Made by a program: the position numbers and the translations under genes. The notes beneath the pieces were generated by a model. That model was not told where the DNA came from. It did no database searches and was given only the letters and a program-made list of their open reading frames with translations. From Owenia fusiformis (lineage: Eukaryota > Annelida > Polychaeta > Sabellida > Oweniidae): DNA of 64,000 bases. Within the stretch, counting starts at the first letter, position 1; every line of letters starts with the position of its first letter. Of the stretch, positions 15,465 through 58,956 are shown in pieces. The DNA lies in assembly GCA_903813345.2 (NCBI GenBank), contig CAIIXF020000005.1, positions 26,787,375-26,851,374 on the forward strand, written 5' to 3'.

Positions 15465-18400
15465 TTAATTTTTGAGCGTAGCAATGTGCAAATCATCCCA
15501 GAGAATACCTCTTTCTACTCCTTGTATCACCAGGCTATCAGACAGCTCTTGCTCAACCTGAATGCTGTCCTTTTCAGCATCAGGCCATCCTTTGTCTGTT
15601 CCTGCAACAGAGAGGTACGTGATCCTACTTCCAGGCTTTCCACGTTTAATGGCTCTAGTAACCCATTGGTCGTGTTCTCCTTTGCTGTACGCATCTCCTA
15701 CATTTGATAGAACAAAGCCATCAAACTTCTCAGATGTACGTTCGAAGTATTCATTTGCATCAACGTGGATTAGCTCAAACCTATCAAGTCGATCACGAAT
15801 TGGGGCGAAATATTCTCGTTTCCAGAAATCTGGTAAACTGTATTTTCCCGAGATTTTGTTAGTTAGGAATATCTCAATGTGGGGATTGTCCATATTTGGA
15901 ACACTCGTGCAAATTTCTCGGAAGCGATTCAACCACCTTGGGGCAAGATCTGGCAATAGATCCATAAATGGGCGAAATATAGTTGGTGAAATATTCAGAT
16001 GTGCTAAAATGAAGGCTCTTCGCCAACGCCATGTATCCCATTGTTCCTCATAGAAAACACGCTGCTGGCCAATATCCGCAAAACTTAAAAACTTGTCCAA
16101 AGTTTCTTGGCTATGAGCTATGGGTGCAAATTTTTCCAAACCCCAAAGACGCAGGCAGGTTGCAAACAAGTACATTCCCGACTTACTCATTGTCTCACGA
16201 TGGAAGTCCCAGTAGACTAATGCTTTACTCGGCAGTGAACCTCTCAGACTGTCATAAATTCTCCCCCTTTCATCGGAGGTGGTTGTGCCCCCTTTACCGA
16301 ATCCAATAAGACTTCGAAACTCTTCATACGTAAGATTCTTGATGGCGCTGAAGTAAAGCATACACCAGGCAATCTGGCTCGGGTTGTTATCAACCATGAC
16401 AATCTTGGCTGGGTTTTCTAGAAGCAGCATTGAAGGGTTGTAACCTGAAGATGCTATGCTGAATATTGTTGACCCCTCCTTGATTTCAAGTGCCTTTTTC
16501 AATGGCCTGTGGTCTTCACCTTGCTGTAAAAGAAAATGTTTTACGGCACTGAAAACTCATAAAGGGTAATATACAAGGAAATCGTGATAATTTTACAATA
16601 TTTTTTTATCGTTTCATGTTGTACCTTTTCTACTTGTTCTAAAAGTTCATCTTTACATGTATATCATTCATACAGGATGGTCCAAAAATGGGACACTCGT
16701 ACTTCAAAAATAAATATTGATTTTCTTGATGAAAACATGTCATATCATATACCAGTGGATATAGGGATTATCTTATCTTTAATTTTCAAGTAATAAACAA
16801 TTTTCAAAGGTTTCAGGTTTAAAATTACATTTGGGGAAAACTACGGGAATTTTGTTAGGAAATCTTAAAAAACAGGAAAACAGTAAAATACACGGAGTAC
16901 AATTTACAAACGACCCTATAAAATGTTTAGGAGTATACATAGGTCATAACGAGAAGCTTTGTGAAGAATTAAACTGGAAACCAAAAATAAAAGACATGGA
17001 AAAACTTTTTGAATCCTGGAAAAAAAGAAAATTGAGTTTATTTGGAAAAGTTCACATTATAAATTCACTAGCCATTTCCAAATTTATCTTTAATTTTACA
17101 ATTCTAGATGTTCCAGAATGGGTGAAAAAAGAATTAAGAAAAATGATCTTTGCATTTTTATGGAAAAGGGAATGTGTAAAAAGAGATGTTATAATTGGAA
17201 AAACTATAGATGGGGGTCTTAATTTAGTTGATATAGACACTAAAATTGCCAGTCTAAGATGTGCCTGGGTACCCAGATTGATAAATAGCACAAGTGCATG
17301 GAAAAGCATTCCTACATATTATATAAATCAAATGGGGTTTCAAGTTAAAGATTTTTTGAAAACAAACACTACTGATAATATCTTTAAAGAATCTTTGTTT
17401 TACAGGAACATTTTTATAGATTTTAACATGTGCAAAGATAAAAAGAAAATTAATAATAACAGCATTTTTAATGAAGTGCTTTGGCTTAACTTTAACTTTA
17501 AATGGAAAGATAAGGTCATTATTTTTAAAAACTGGGTAAAAGTAGGCTTCATATATGTGAAAGATTTCTTTGATGAAAATGGAAATATTTTATCAGAACA
17601 CTATGTATTTAACCGTCTTAAAGACAAAAAAAATTGGTTTTATGAATATTCAGTCATTCGAAATATAATGAGAAGTATAACAAATACTGTTGATACACTG
17701 TATGCAAACTTTACAAATATACAATATAAATATAACATCCTTGCTAACAATAAGTACCATTATATAATTAACAAAAAGTCAAAGTTGTTTTATAATATTT
17801 TAATTAACAAAATAAGAAAACGAAATTATACTGAAGCTTTTTGGAGTAGGCAATTTAAAACACCTAGTGATTGTGAATCTTATAAAGATGTATATAATCA
17901 GAAGATTTTGAAAATGCCATGTAAATATTTAGCAGAACTGAATTTTAAAATTGTAAATAATTGTCTTCCTTGTGGTTATATTGTTAATAAATGGAACAGA
18001 CAAGTTATTTCAAAATGTGTACACTGTAATAAAAATCACACCATGGAACATATGCTGTATGAGTGCAAGAAATCTGTCGACATATGGAATACTATAGGAA
18101 CCAGTTTAAATTTGAACATAAAATGGAAACATATTGTTTTAGGATTTAGTGAAAATAATAATGTATCTGTAATAAAAAATTTAATCATAGCAATTACTGC
18201 AAAAACAATCCATTCGGAATGGTCAAAAAACTCTGAAGATGAACAATCACTTTTAAATTGTAATTTACAGTTAAAAGTTAAATCAAGTATCATATTTTAT
18301 AAAGGATTATTGGATCATAATTATGTCAACAGGTATTTTTAACCATGCAATTGATAATATTATTTCAAAACTAAATACTTGATATGTTTTGTAAATATGT

Positions 18401-19825
18401 TTGTTTTATTTTTGTGAATAAATATTTTAATAAAAAAATCAAAAAAAATCTTATCTTTAATTTGGTATATCAAAAGTTCAAATTTAATATAATGCCTGTC
18501 AACAAGCGTCCATGATATAAATGACGTCATTTTCGTTTCAAAACAGGTTTTCCAAAACTTGCAAAAAGCAAATTTTTGATCTACTTTATTTACATAAACA
18601 GACATTTAATTTGTCAACCATTTTGAACAATCGTAGCCCTCAATTTTGGCTAGAACTGGTTTAAAGCACCATTGACATGCTGTTGAGACAATTAATTCCA
18701 CTTCTCAACAATTCTGTCCTTAAGGAACTGAATAGATGTAAGGTGTTCATGGTACACCAATTTTGTTAGTTCTCCCAATACGTGGTAGTCGCAGACGTTG
18801 ACATCGGATGATCCAATTATGTTGTTTTTGGACCATGCTGGTATGAGCTCATTTTCGAATCTACATTTTCCAACAAGGGGCTCCACGCAATATAGATCCC
18901 ACATGAGTGTCAAATGTTTAAAAGAGAATGTGCCTATAGATTCATCCCCCTTAATCACTGCCTCCTCAGATCACCAAATCACCCAAAGTATGTGACACCA
19001 TGTACATGTATATGGAGTTCTAACATAATTGGTGTAGCATAAGTCCTTTACATCTATTCAGTCTCTCGAGGACAGAATTATTGAGAATTGAAATCCAATG
19101 TCTCAACAACATACCAATGATGCTATAATTAACCGGTTTAGGCTAAAATTGAGGGCTACGATTGATCAAAATGATGAACATATTGAACGTCTGTTTATGT
19201 AAATAAAGTTGATAAAAACTTGGGTTTTGCAAGTTTTGGAAAATCCGTTTTGAAACGTACAAGTATTATGGACGCTGGTTGACAGACATTATAATAAATT
19301 TGAACTTATGATATACCAAATTAAAGCTGAGTCAATTCCCCATCCACTGGTAAGCCTATATGATATGACATGATTTCATCAAGTAAATCAATATTTTTTG
19401 AAATACGAATGTCCCAATTTTTTGGACCACCCTGTATAATTCTTCGACGTCGTAATGTTATCTTGCAAAAGTTTTGAAAGAAGACGATTTTTTCAATGCT
19501 TTCAACATTTTACATCCTCTATCATGTCTATCCTTAATTTTACAGCATCAAAGTTTTTTGTTGTTCCACATTTACCTGTTTTTGGTCTTGTCTCCAGATT
19601 CCCCCAGAGATACCATAAAAGGCATCCACATCCCATTTGTAGAAAAAAGGAAGTGCTATTTATTCTTACCCATGCGAACACAACTGTCTCATTTTTCCAG
19701 TCTTCCACATCTGTCTTTAAGATGTCTTCCGATAGTATAGAGAGTCCACTAACATGTGAAGTTAACATTTCACGTTTCATTGCTCTTCTACCAATCTTTC
19801 CGATTTTAGACAATATTCTGGACAT
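15465..19825 (-). CDS. btaA: BtaA-family S-adenosylmethionine:diacylglycerol 3-amino-3-carboxypropyltransferase (DUF3419), two exons
   Basis: BtaA moves the 3-amino-3-carboxypropyl group of SAM onto diacylglycerol to make diacylglyceryl-homoserine, which BtaB methylates to the betaine lipid DGTS. Exon 1 is 19670-19825 (52 codons, ATG with A at -3, donor TGG|GTAAGA). Exon 2 is 15465-16523 (acceptor TTTTACAG). Both junctions are phase 0 and give 404 residues, near the bacterial length. Splicing brings AW together with QGEDHRPLKKALEIKEG, in the place of the family WEDPR segment. SAM-site signatures follow: SIASSGYN and VDNNPSQ, then LTYEEFRSLIGFG, an LTNKISGKYSLP block, RLDRFELIHVD and FVLSNV. 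The first 21 residues are basic, so an organelle signal is possible but unproven. No BtaB gene is in the window. The splice sites argue against bacterial contamination. Confidence 0.85.
16770..18463 (+). mobile_element. 5'-truncated L1/Tx1-like LINE with 16-bp target-site duplication
   Basis: The 16-bp string ATCTTATCTTTAATTT occurs at 16770-16785 and again at 18448-18463. Between the copies is a LINE fragment with an open frame from 16786 to the stop at 18342 and an A-rich tail (18430-18447). The insertion lies in the left arm of the palindromic element and is therefore younger than it. The uninterrupted frame suggests a recent insertion. Confidence 0.88.
16786..18342 (+). CDS. LINE ORF2 fragment: end of reverse transcriptase and C-terminal domain
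   Basis: 518 codons, open from the truncation point. It begins just after the catalytic core with FSKVSGLKLHLGKT, then the thumb-type block (KCLGVYIGHN, WKKRKLSLFGKVHIINSLAI, ELRKMIFAFLWKRE) and ends with a zinc-knuckle-like C-x2-C-x7-H-x4-C (CVHCNKNHTMEHMLYEC). This order is typical of the L1/Tx1 clade. Endonuclease and RT catalytic parts are missing, so it cannot move itself. Confidence 0.85.
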   Translation, partial: SSNKQFSKVSGLKLHLGKTTGILLGNLKKQENSKIHGVQFTNDPIKCLGVYIGHNEKLCEELNWKPKIKDMEKLFESWKKRKLSLFGKVHIINSLAISKFIFNFTILDVPEWVKKELRKMIFAFLWKRECVKRDVIIGKTIDGGLNLVDIDTKIASLRCAWVPRLINSTSAWKSIPTYYINQMGFQVKDFLKTNTTDNIFKESLFYRNIFIDFNMCKDKKKINNNSIFNEVLWLNFNFKWKDKVIIFKNWVKVGFIYVKDFFDENGNILSEHYVFNRLKDKKNWFYEYSVIRNIMRSITNTVDTLYANFTNIQYKYNILANNKYHYIINKKSKLFYNILINKIRKRNYTEAFWSRQFKTPSDCESYKDVYNQKILKMPCKYLAELNFKIVNNCLPCGYIVNKWNRQVISKCVHCNKNHTMEHMLYECKKSVDIWNTIGTSLNLNIKWKHIVLGFSENNNVSVIKNLIIAITAKTIHSEWSKNSEDEQSLLNCNLQLKVKSSIIFYKGLLDHNYVNRYF

Positions 19826-31100: not shown

Positions 31101-34100
31101 GTTGGGGTTGTGTGTGTATGTTTAGTACATCAACAAATGTATGGTCTAAAATGAATTTACACAGTATATTAAACATACCAGATATTGCTTGTGTAATCAC
31201 CTACTAACAAAAGTCCCTCTTTGTCCACTACAACAGCAGTGGGGTTTTGTAGTCCATCTGATGCTGTTAGGAGATGTTTTATGAATTTGCCTCCTGGTGT
31301 TAGCAGTTGAACCCTTTGATTGTTGAAATCAGCCACAATAATATTGTCTGCTCTGTCTGTGCAGAGACCCCATGGATAGTCTAGCTCATTCTGTCCACTA
31401 CCTTTGGTGCCATATCTGAATATCTCATTACCGTCTCTGTCCATAGCAATTACACACTGTGCAATGTAGTCAGACACGATCACCACATTTTTGCTGTTGA
31501 TGGCTACACCCATAGCTCCCTTGAACATGCCGAGAGGAGACCCTCGCAAGATTCTACCAGATGTGCTTTCTATATGGTACACAGACTTAGTACCTGGGTC
31601 ACATATCACAAATTCACCTCTTGAATTCACAGCAATGCCTCGACATTGTTTCGCTTGGGGTATCTGCATGATTCTCTTGTCTTCACCAGATTGATTGTAA
31701 ATGCAAACAGTATTATTACTACAAGTGAATAGCAGAGCTTTGTTTGTGGTTGTAACATTGAAATATGTTTCGTAAAAGAATGTGTCAAAGTCATACATAA
31801 CTGTGCCAGAACCTTGACCAACAGCTACGAGTATATCATTCTTAGTGAAAGCCAAAACACATTTTTTACATCTCCAATTTTGACCTTTTTCTGAAGCTTA
31901 GGATAAGTCAGTGTTCCACCAGTCTTATGAACTGGTGGTGTCATAGTGTTTATATCTACTTTACCAAACTCCATTTTATCATCCAATACTGTGCCCGTGT
32001 GTATTTTGAATGTTATGTTAGCATCAAATGCAGTGTTTGGAGGGTTTGTCCATTCTTTGTTTTTGACAGCAATGTCCTGTGCCATGTATGCGATTTGTGT
32101 GTCGTGTCCATGTTGTTTTATTGCATTAAGCTGGGTAATTGTACTCTCTATTGTTGCCTTCTGTATAATGAGATGTTCTTGATGAGCCACTGCTTGCTTA
32201 GCGCATGTTGCTCTTTTCTCAGCTACATCATCAATGGTTTTGGTGTATTTATCACGTATGGCTTGGAGAGCCATATTCATATCATTGTTTAGTTCATGCA
32301 TCACATCATCCGCCTCTTGTTCCATCCTTTCTATATCGGTTGCAGTGTTCTGTATTGATTGCTTGTAGCATGCAATTAACTTTTCACCTTTCTTGATGAG
32401 GTCATCAATATGCTTGACATTGTCCACTGCAGCTTGATGGATGTCGACACACTCGTGGCCAGAATGCTTGATCACGTAACATGTAGCGCAAACGGCACAC
32501 CTGTCCACCTTACAGTATATCTCAAGTGGGTTTGTCTTGTGTGTTGAACAATACACAACACGCTTTTTGATGGCATCTAGATTGGCTTGCGAGTCTTGAG
32601 CACTATCACTTGTGACATCGATAACAGTGTGACCTTGGACATAATGAGCATGATAATCAGAGCAATTCTTACAGTGATGTTCATTACACTGTATGCATTT
32701 AGATATTGCATTAACATCCTTTTGATTTCTTTCCCTACATATTGTACATTGTGGTTTGTCCTCAATCTTCATAGATTGAAATATATCCACGAGTGAGCTA
32801 GTTGTAAAGTTCACTTTAAACTTTGTAACTCCTCCTTCGGGTATCGTGTGAACTTGTCTACATTCTGGGCAGCTTAGACTCTGTCCTTGTTCATTTCTTT
32901 CTAACTTATCCAGGCATTTGCAGCAATATGTGTGCATACATGGTAGAGCCCTCTGGTCTTTTAATATCTCATAACACACTTTACATTTCAAAGTTTCCCT
33001 TACTTGTGCTTCTATCCCTGATGCCATTATAATTGTTGAAATCAGTGATACTTATTTTGATTAATAAATGATTTAAACACATCTGCATTATCATCAAATG
33101 TTTAACACTAGCCTTGTATATTATTTGTAAATTGAAGTAGGCTGTGTACTATTTTACCTGTGTAAGATTAACCTTCTCCTGATAACCTATGTACATGCTG
33201 ATGTGTACTTTAGCAATAACCTGCAATGCCTTTTTGCAATAAGTAATATAGCCTACATCAGGTTAGCTTAACCCTCAAGCTCTTTACAGCAACAGTGCAA
33301 ACAGTTTAACATAGCATACATGCTCATTTACGAAAAAATGATATGCTGAGTGTGGTGAAATACTGGCTCATGGGTATTGGGTTGATAGAGAGATGGCAGT
33401 GTGGTTTGTCTCATAGATCGGTTTAAAAGATAACTCTTTATTAGACAATTATATAAGGATTTAAACACTGAACTCAATGCTATGTAAAATATATCATGGG
33501 CATGGGGCCTTTAGTGTGCTCAGAAAAAATGTTTAGTTTTTGAGCCCCAAAATTTTGTAGTGCCTTAAAAAATGGGCCTTTCTTTTTTGGGCCAATTTAT
33601 CAAAAACGGGCCTTAATTTTTCAAAGTAATTTTTTTCCTCGCAAGCGCGGTTATTTTTTTCCAGACTCAAAATTTGGGCCCCCCTTTGTTAATTTCTGGA
33701 TCCACCTCTGAATTGGATTGTTCTTTCCTTAAACAAGACTGAAATCACATATATAATGCTTGGACTGAGCTAGTTGCCTCACTAAAATTTGTCCAAAAAT
33801 TCTAGATGATTTTTCATGTTTAATCTAAAACAAAAAACTCTCCCAAATAAGTATTTCAATATTATTATCACCTATATAACCTATCACCTATTAAATTATG
33901 AATATTCAAAGAGGACATTTAAATCTACAAGATGTAAAAATACCACTATCGTACGAAGCAGGCATAACATGAAATAGATTGATTCAATAAAAGACAAGTC
34001 TCAATTTGGAGAAAGAAGTCCATCAGTGTACTGCGCTAATATTTTTTCATGAAAAATCTAAGAAGACATTCAAATCTATATTATGTAAAAAAAATCAAAA

Positions 34101-47879: not shown

Positions 47880-49060
47880 AAAGAGTGCCCATGTAAAATT
47901 CGTTTAAAAAGTATTTTGATCTATGGGATGGTGTCATGGCATAATCTTATGACCATAGACTACATCCTCCGATCATAGGGCTTCAAATTCCAGAATATGT
48001 TCTCTCTTTTTAAAGGAAGTGCGCATTCTGGATGCATGTCATGTGAATTCCTGAAAAACTGATTTTAAAAATACCTGCCGGTTTCAAAATGGCCACCAAT
48101 TTTACTGTATTTTAGGCACAACATATAAAGCTGTAAAGTTAATAATTTTAAATGCAACCCTATACAAAAAATGACTAAATTAAAAATCTAATTATCTAAA
48201 AAATGGCAGCCATCTTGAAAAACGATGGTCGATTTTACGATTTTTGTTGTATCTGAAAAAGTACTGGAGCGATTTTGTTAATAGGGTATGCCATGATACC
48301 GTGCCAGGTCTTTTACTAACCATGGGCAGTTTTAAGCCCATGTACTAACTCAAGAAAATTGGAATATACTGTTTGAGAAAATTGAAAATATCAATGTATA
48401 GTATCTGGAAAATGCACTCATAATATTAATTTTTCAAAAGAAGAATATGTCCAAATACCATTTGCGAAATTCATTGCTTTCAAATATACAGGGTGAACCA
48501 AAAAGGTAACCGAAACACATGTACGTTTTAACTCAGTCATTCATCACGGGTTTGATGTGATATTTGGCACACTTGTTCGATGTTCTTTCATTCTACCAAG
48601 TTTCAATGCATCCATAAAATTGTGACCATTTGGGATAGACCAATCCATAAATCAGGCATGTCTTTTGATGCCATGTAACTTCTGCTAGATTTAAGACATC
48701 CTTCTTCAAAGGACTTCATTTATGCTTAAATTCATATATACTTGTAAAATACCCTTGCAGCAAGGATGGATTTAAGACTGAGTGACTTTTAAGGTACTCC
48801 TCGCTAAATTGTTTCTGGATCTTCAGATACGTAGAGCAACCTTAAATGCAGCATAAGATAACAAAGGATACTTTGTAAAATTTGTGATTGTAAATTTGAA
48901 ATGCTTGGACCCTCATATCATAAATCACGTTCGATTCCCTGATAGTGAAACATGTATTATACTGTAGTTGTAACAAATAAAAAAATTAAGGGGAAAAATA
49001 AAAAAGATCTTTAAGGTACCCAAAAAGCTTGTTGCAAGGGTTCACCTTTATATTTCATAA
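47880..49060 (-). other. Intron 1 of copy A
   Basis: Contains a decayed repeat with AAAATGGCCACC / AAAATGGCAGCCAT-type blocks (about 48080-48240), similar in style to the sequence at 63840-64000. A single CAGGGTGAACCAAAAA transposon end lies at about 48489. No exon seen. Confidence 0.5.
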
Positions 49061-49490
49061 ATATTTACCGAACGCGATGATATCGGAACGAGAAATGATT
49101 TTTCCTTGTTTTAAGAACTCATGAAAGTCTTCTGTTGTGTTCAAGTAAATCGGTAATTTTTCTCCACCAGCTATAAGCGAGAATGTTTTTTCATATACAG
49201 TGAAGTTAGTGGGTGTCGTGTTCCTTAGTGGTTTCCTGGTTGAGCATGAAGCTGGTTGCTTTGATTCTCCATATTTAGAAAAAATCAAGAAAATACTGAC
49301 AATGATGATGAATTTTGAACCCTTCATATTCATAACTTTCCTTTGAAATGATGTAGAAATCAATCACATATCTAATTAATGTTACTGTTGCTCAAATACA
49401 ATCATATCTGATCGTACGTACAACTGCGAACCCATATTGCCATAAAGACTGATATATAGTAGATTCGCATGTTTTACTTCCACGTACATA

Positions 49491-58149: not shown

Positions 58150-58440
58150 CTAAATGTTTCCACGAAAAGGACCAGGTATGATATGGCAAGGAATTTCAGT
58201 CAATTATTGAGTCATATCTTTGATCATTAGTATTCTCTCAACACATTTCGAATCTCGTTTTTCTCATTTTTATTGCATGAATAAATCATACAAAAAAAAG
58301 TTATTCAAACTGGCAAAGGTAGAATGGCGTTGAAAGTCTAATTTGGAAGATATAAAATTTAGACCAAAATTAGGCTGAAAATGATAGTAGCATGAGATTT
58401 CCAAATGAGAAAATATGATGAGATATGTTCTTTACAACTA
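58150..58440. repeat. Repeat related to the inverted repeat at 62932-63631
   Basis: In intron 1 of copy B. Shares TGGCAAG...TTCAGTCA, TCATATCTTTGATCATTAGTA and TTTTTATTGCATGA with the right-hand repeat, but lacks the second arm. Confidence 0.55.
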
Positions 58441-58956
58441 TTATTAATATGGTATTATAAATTTTGTAAATACCTTTTGCGACGATTTCTGATTGTGAAG
58501 TGATTCCTGCACGGGCGAAAAAATCGTGAAAGAGATCTGTCCTATTGAAATGGCCTGTGGCTGGCCCTTCAGCTATGATAGAGAATGTCTTCTCGTAAAC
58601 GGTGAAGTTTGTTGGTATCGTGTTCTTGCATGGTTTCCTTGCGCATGGAAATTGTCCTGTTGCTGCCGCATATTGAGATAGCAAGAAAATACTGACTATG
58701 ATAAGTTTTGAACCCTTCATGTTCCTATCTTACCTTAGAACGATGTAGAAAACAAGTGCTGACTGCTCAGATACAATCTACGTGTAACTTCGAACTGATG
58801 GTTGCATATGCTTTTTATTCCATGAATAGTACTTTTACTTATAATTTATGTATTTTGCTCTGACGTCATTATGTCATCATATGATAAACTATGAAAAATA
58901 TTGATAAATCAAGTTAGGTTAAAAGTGCAAATAGACTAAAATATGTATATGTATTT

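Follow-up and report, generated by a model that had tools for sequence, protein, structure and literature searches.

A spliced and expanded DUF3419 gene family, related to BtaA, in the annelid Owenia fusiformis

The DNA considered here is a stretch of 64,000 nucleotides (the window) from the annelid Owenia fusiformis (assembly GCA_903813345.2, contig CAIIXF020000005.1; C5:26787375-26851374 in our numbering), and within it we have tried to make sense of one gene: a two-exon gene on the minus strand, 404 codons and a stop codon divided by a phase-0 GT-AG intron, whose product belongs to the Pfam family DUF3419. To the same family belongs BtaA, which makes diacylglyceryl-homoserine from S-adenosylmethionine (SAM) and diacylglycerol. 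What might such an enzyme be doing in an animal, and how did it come to be there? The structure of the gene and its family membership are matters of observation; our answers to these larger questions are offered with varying degrees of belief.

Results

The gene was proposed in a first-pass annotation made from the letters of the window, and a check of splice sites and reading frame confirmed the two exons, the 404 codons and the place of the junction. The donor reads GCATGG/GTAAGA, and the acceptor has TTTTACAG before the junction and CAAGGTGAAGAC after it. Its parts are as follows.

19670-19825, minus strand: exon 1, 156 nt, with the start codon, a presequence-like N-terminus and, as VVFAW, the end of the conserved N-terminal segment
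19745-19825, minus strand: candidate mitochondrial presequence, first 27 codons, with 7 K/R, 1 D/E and a maximal helical hydrophobic moment of 0.83
16524-19669, minus strand: phase-0 intron, in a position common to the paralogues, containing transposon remnants
15465-16523, minus strand: exon 2, 1059 nt, 352 codons and stop, with the DUF3419 domain
16512-16523, minus strand: QGED, counterpart of the family's xWED, with E and D retained and W replaced by G
16437-16460, minus strand: SIASSGYN, the glycine-rich SAM-site motif (G27 in 42/42 bacterial rows)
16374-16394, minus strand: VDNNPSQ (D45 in 42/42 bacterial rows)
15690-15710, minus strand: LSNVGDA, at the place taken by LLDAQDW in BtaA proper and by LSNIFEY in other DUF3419 clades

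The SAM-site motifs named beforehand (SIASSGYN, VDNNPSQ and RLDRFELIH) are all present in the spliced product. The claim that the junction rebuilds a WED-like N-terminal segment holds in part: the counterpart is rebuilt there, but it reads GED, with G in 6/6 rows of the subfamily to which the gene belongs. The expected DUF3419 match is strong, the spliced protein scoring 117.9 bits against PF11899 over residues 46-359 (E = 7.9e-34; curated cut-off 28.2 bits), and this is its sole Pfam match at E up to 1. A search of NCBIfam with the spliced protein gave no match, and a sequence search of solved structures gave no credible relative. An AlphaFold2 model of exon 2, built on a six-row alignment (mean predicted local distance difference test 75.2, predicted template modelling score 0.76), aligns with SAM-dependent methyltransferases at VIA-align Z up to 17.4 (root-mean-square deviation 2.4 over 157 residues; run on the 1000 chains ranked top by Foldseek, with Z of 14.6-17.4 for the 50 listed entries). 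As modelled, exon 2 has a class I SAM-binding fold, with its Rossmann arrangement, glycine-rich loop and acidic ribose ligand. The alignment likewise shows that the window gene retains most, though not all, of the conserved residues of the predicted SAM site: E3, D4, G27, D45, Q50, W105, N213 and L272, each found in at least 88% of 42 bacterial rows, are present, and D4, G27 and D45 are invariant among those rows. The VD dipeptide is the one that PMC8752610 marks in algal BtaA domains as binding SAM.

This gene has company, being one of a large family and not single: in the assembly (498 Mb, 525 contigs) there are 37 matches to DUF3419, spread over nine large contigs of 31.9-62.2 Mb (10 on C5, 8 on C4, 5 on C8, 4 on C11, 3 on C12, 2 each on C1, C7 and C10 and 1 on C3), some of them fragments of one gene, which puts the true gene number somewhat below 37. 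A lone transferred gene is thereby ruled out. With 28 of the 37 matches read as sequence, at least 24 copies have an intact second exon, and three subfamilies can be told apart: A, with xWED (12 tree rows); B, with GED, comprising the window gene and five others; and C, with seven rows, in which WED is lost, H mostly stands for N29 and T replaces N274. Just beyond the edge of the window, within 9 kb, there are three more B copies. The third of these, in tandem (L005 8201-9106, or G000:C5:26784200-26785105), has an in-frame TGA in the domain and is probably a pseudogene, to judge from its reading frame; and in a five-copy tandem cluster of the same contig (C5:7175926-7215307) one subfamily A copy, L012 (G000:C5:7180895-7181743), has a short C-terminus that diverges from its neighbours. 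Ratios of nonsynonymous to synonymous substitution (dN/dS) between exon 2 of the window gene and its relatives are 0.22 (L017), 0.25 (L016), 0.24 (L005a) and 0.22 (L005b), with 0.08 against L018, where dS is saturated; nine other A and B pairs give 0.16-0.29. Such codon comparisons show the gene to be under purifying selection. Among the open-access PMC papers searched, DUF3419 is named in four, which by their titles or abstract openings are about algae, plants or a plant-infecting fungus, and no listed title concerns the family in animals.

The intron, too, is shared. An AG acceptor stands at the same codon, before xWED or its counterpart, in the window gene and in 24 of the 25 other copies fetched (L028 is the exception, its start having been cut arbitrarily), and in the fetched copies it mostly follows a T-rich stretch. 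For 17 of these 26 copies (5/6 in B, 8/13 in A counting L012, 4/7 in C) we found a first exon whose GT donor is in phase; the other nine gave no convincing first exon in about 3.5 kb upstream, L006 offering one doubtful candidate that we leave uncounted. Four other copies (L005a, L005b, L016 and L017) have the window gene's own first exon, MSRILS...W followed by GT. In B the first exon closes on FAW, FVW or YSW, in A on FAM or FSM and in C on FSQ, where the bacterial proteins have YANC or YPQI before WED. Because the acceptor codon and the matching first exons are common to A, B and C, the intron predates both the expansion and the split into subfamilies. An intron gain had been proposed; an intron does interrupt the gene, but it is old and common to three subfamilies, and the shared acceptor codon and in-phase donors exclude a gain by the window gene alone. 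Within it we observed a reverse-transcriptase-like frame at 16783-18339 on the plus strand (with a zf-RVT match below cut-off), flanked by a pair of inverted-repeat arms (16709-16751 and 19357-19399, 93%); more inverted repeats lie nested at 18450-19331.

What does the first exon add? In 17 animal proteins there are 39-54 residues ahead of the W of WED, compared with about 10-17 in the bacterial non-BtaA proteins L030, L032 and L033. The first exons align poorly between subfamilies, and yet in every one of the 17 the first 27 residues include four or more K/R and no more than one D/E, as they do in 115 of 623 background frames (ATG-started reading frames from the same DNA); since all fit in spite of the poor alignment, composition is a better clue than length. 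Under a stricter rule, at least two R and zero acidic residues, the counts are 12/17 and 31/623. The maximal hydrophobic moment of the window gene exceeds that of all 500 shuffles, and several first exons contain RTYS, RYYS or RGLS, which we take to resemble a common processing-site pattern. Exon 1 probably encodes a mitochondrial presequence, import being a reading of its composition.

Bacterial homologues came from a scan of genome contigs (five loci), from plasmid records and from the genomes of three phyla, in which 37/296, 24/39 (23 above cut-off) and 8/301 genomes have a DUF3419 match. The 42 bacterial rows (5 from the contig scan, 7 from plasmids, 30 from phylum genomes) were chosen by score and spread rather than at random, and rows that were broken (L012 and the third L005 copy), split or partial (L050, L059, L073) or duplicated (L052, L057) were removed before counting. 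In the resulting 67-row tree the 25 animal rows form one clade (support 100/99), within which A has 100/95, B (the window gene included) 100/100 and C 100/99, with B beside A plus C if the bacteria are taken as outside. The motif LLDxxDW marks BtaA proper: it is found in 13/13 rows of the BtaA clade, in 0/29 other bacterial rows and in 0/25 animal rows, and in a reduced tree, made by dropping 13 mostly long-branched or other-clade rows, its bearers form one clade (100/100) without animals. In its place the 29 other bacterial rows have (L/M/F)S(N/D) (L053 read by eye), and SN occurs in 18/18 A and B rows (L025 by eye, as ISN) and in 0/7 C rows, where ST or TT stands instead. The nearest bacteria to the animals in the 67-row tree are 13 LSN/LSD rows (93/92), and a single clade of animals and sampled BtaA, a grouping named after the tree was seen, is rejected there (p = 0.017 in the approximately unbiased (AU) test). 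On these alignments the animal clade is shown to lie outside the sampled BtaA clade. The label of BtaA homologue given in the first-pass annotation is supported as regards a spliced DUF3419 homologue and unsupported as regards BtaA in the strict sense, given the clade, the absent motif and the failure to find a convincing BtaB.

Gene neighbourhoods differ in the same manner. At 5/5 BtaA-clade loci whose neighbours were read (L035, annotated, with L034, L038, L046 and L044, the other eight loci of the clade standing outside the count) a btaB-like methyltransferase adjoins, and the methyltransferases of the last four share 26-55% identity with the one at L035. At six non-BtaA loci (L029-L033 and L036) no methyltransferase is among the neighbours scanned or annotated, which are PPDK/PEP-utiliser, GNAT, MMPL, LolA-like, pyridine-nucleotide oxidoreductase, PEPCK, DHDPS, UbiA and AMP-binding proteins and several without matches. 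In Bacteroidota and on a Roseinatronobacter plasmid (L030, L032, L033 and L036) the DUF3419 gene adjoins PPDK/PEP-utiliser and in places GNAT, UbiA or AMP-binding genes, perhaps a biosynthetic cluster, judging from gene order. On a Deefgea plasmid (L040, the longest terminal branch in the tree) it adjoins adenosylmethionine decarboxylase and an iron-containing redox enzyme. Two further ideas on origin, co-transfer of a neighbour and a viral source, were set aside. A search for the PPDK-like neighbour as a co-transferred gene, run without a positive control, found no match in the animal genome; and scans of viral contigs gave no match for the window exon or the animal alignment, and no phage match, the BtaA alignment alone returning one BtaA-type hit. 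That hit, L078 in a viral collection, is a btaA (57% to Rhizobium leguminosarum) followed by a btaB-like gene, either viral cargo or host flank.

Elsewhere in the window, RING, B-box and NHL domains lie in two overlapping frames at 31172-33051 on the minus strand, a TRIM/NHL-like gene, and two related minus-strand frames with signal-peptide-like starts, at 49058-49363 (TPTNFTVYEKTFS) and 58373-58729 (TIPTNFTVYEKTFS), may encode two short secreted proteins.

Discussion

We favour, with about as much belief as doubt, the reading that this is a nuclear animal gene for a mitochondrial SAM-dependent 3-amino-3-carboxypropyl transferase of the DUF3419 fold. The product would be imported into mitochondria, where, if the chemistry follows that of BtaA, SAM would donate its 3-amino-3-carboxypropyl (homoserine-forming) group and methylthioadenosine would leave as by-product; the acceptor may be a lipid or some other hydroxyl, diacylglycerol being that of BtaA. 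A family so large, with so divergent a subfamily C, suggests that several acceptors may be served. To our knowledge, BtaA is the only DUF3419 member with a known reaction, and lipid the only known acceptor.

A number of points count against us. Foldseek found no PDB match to the exon-2 model at E <= 0.001 (best E 0.0034), and the middle, helical part of the model is of low confidence. The window gene is changed at W2 to G (W in 85% of bacterial rows), L31 to S (88%), G121 to A (95%) and Y342 to W (90%). N-terminal length is not decisive, for there can be up to 29 residues before W in L031 and there are 48 in the BtaA of R. leguminosarum; the helical moment beats shuffles at p < 0.05 in just 6/17 first exons; the copies are kin, which reduces 17 first exons to some three to five independent cases; and the presequence call was made on composition. 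In the reduced tree the tie between animals and LSN bacteria drops to 61/23 and animals plus BtaA are not rejected (AU p = 0.46), and because that tie collapsed our claim goes no further than a place for the animals outside the sampled BtaA. Finally, we know of no measurement of the chemistry of non-BtaA DUF3419 clades.

Might the proteins have kept SAM binding and changed the reaction, so as to transfer methyl, or to place aminocarboxypropyl on RNA, protein or a small molecule? This seems to us possible, if somewhat doubtful. Subfamily C, without WED, N29 (mostly) and N274, is the most changed, W2 and G121 are replaced in the window gene itself, and the varied neighbourhoods of the bacterial non-BtaA genes (PPDK/PEP-utiliser with GNAT, AMP-binding with UbiA, CoF synthetase, SpeD) would suit such a change; A and B, however, retain most of the core residues, and the lipid acceptor of BtaA is still the one example on record.

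Our preferred transferase could also have had another ancestry. A bacterial transfer of the family is plausible; the trees, however, compare Owenia rows with bacterial rows only, and we keep as a tentative alternative, no stronger than the last, descent from a eukaryotic BTA1 that lost its BtaB domain. The tree legend of PMC10685587, which made a wide BLAST from a BTA1, names protists, choanoflagellates, fungi, plants and bacteria but no animal, and choanoflagellates within a BtaA tree would suit such descent. The large tree rejects animals plus sampled BtaA, though the reduced one does not, and A and B carry SN, not LLDxxDW.

That the genes are BtaA in function, making diacylglyceryl-homoserine that an unrelated methyltransferase completes to the betaine lipid diacylglyceryl-trimethylhomoserine (DGTS), so that the animal makes its own, appears improbable to us. 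The Pfam family is that of BtaA; DGTS occurs in 20/21 algal strains with DUF3419 transcripts, according to PMC6642084, and in copepods, with diet or synthesis left open in PMC10744631; in sea slugs and marine animals PMC8708635 ascribes it to chloroplasts or algal symbionts. A BtaB-like methyltransferase, which the first-pass annotation had thought worth seeking in the genome, did not convincingly turn up: exon by exon, queries with R. leguminosarum and Bacteroidota BtaB gave no convincing match, only generic methyltransferases, though the superfamily of BtaB is very large, and a BtaB that has diverged or is split over many exons could escape such a search. The first query found two methyltransferase exons (2.2e-6 at 29% identity, and 0.005) and the second only the former of these (2.1e-4); both match general methyltransferase models, like BtaB itself, and by eye the better one is without Y130 and M134, invariant in six bacterial BtaB. 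As a yardstick, the R. leguminosarum BtaA query finds 21 animal DUF3419 places. Clade position, the BtaB not found and the presequence, which would indicate mitochondria, together argue against plain DGTS synthesis.

Contamination or dead copies, to which the in-frame TGA at C5:26784200-26785105 and the short L012 might point, we consider extremely improbable in view of the nine large contigs, the shared GT-AG intron with transposon remnants inside it in the window, dN/dS well below 1, the TRIM/NHL-like gene in the window and a UGT-like frame (named by eye) adjoining L009; and the gene was rightly taken as animal, for it stands on a 42-Mb contig of a genome with 42 Wnt-family matches, as against 0/14 control genomes.

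What would it mean? The fullest version, which we think unlikely as a whole if short of fanciful, is that a bacterial aminocarboxypropyl transferase was acquired, was joined to a mitochondrial presequence by way of a new intron and multiplied to at least two dozen genes, whose product, made in mitochondria, would be a homoserine-type lipid or some other aminocarboxypropylated compound new to animals. Far short of that, on sequence grounds, the animal genes are relatives of BtaA and no proof that the animal makes betaine lipid. A native DUF3419 family offers named genes with which to test whether marine animals make betaine lipids of their own, and it cautions that DUF3419 alone need not predict such a lipid, some clades having a BtaB partner and others none seen. 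If import is true, there would be a large family of mitochondrial animal enzymes without an assigned substrate.

Comparison with known systems

Eukaryotic BTA1, a fused BtaA-BtaB or BtaB-BtaA protein, is like the window gene in being eukaryotic and having a DUF3419 domain (PMC6642084, PMC10685587 and PMC8752610). It differs in its second domain, none being seen here: exon 2 of the window gene ends two residues past the last strand of the model, and the exon-2 frames of the fetched animal copies are of 301-377 codons. BtaA itself, in the form of the R. leguminosarum BtaA-like protein, shares the Pfam family, picks up the window gene in a search (E = 4.7e-8, 27% identity) and resembles it in VD, the glycine-rich loop and E/D residues; its score against the family is 380.7 bits, however, and it has LLDxxDW and btaB, whereas the animal family has neither LLDxxDW nor a convincing btaB and adds the presequence-like N-terminus and an intron. 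The non-BtaA DUF3419 proteins of Bacteroidota, Chloroflexota and Riflebacteria (LSN/LSD), at 22-28% identity to the window protein, have the SN motif in common with animal subfamilies A and B.

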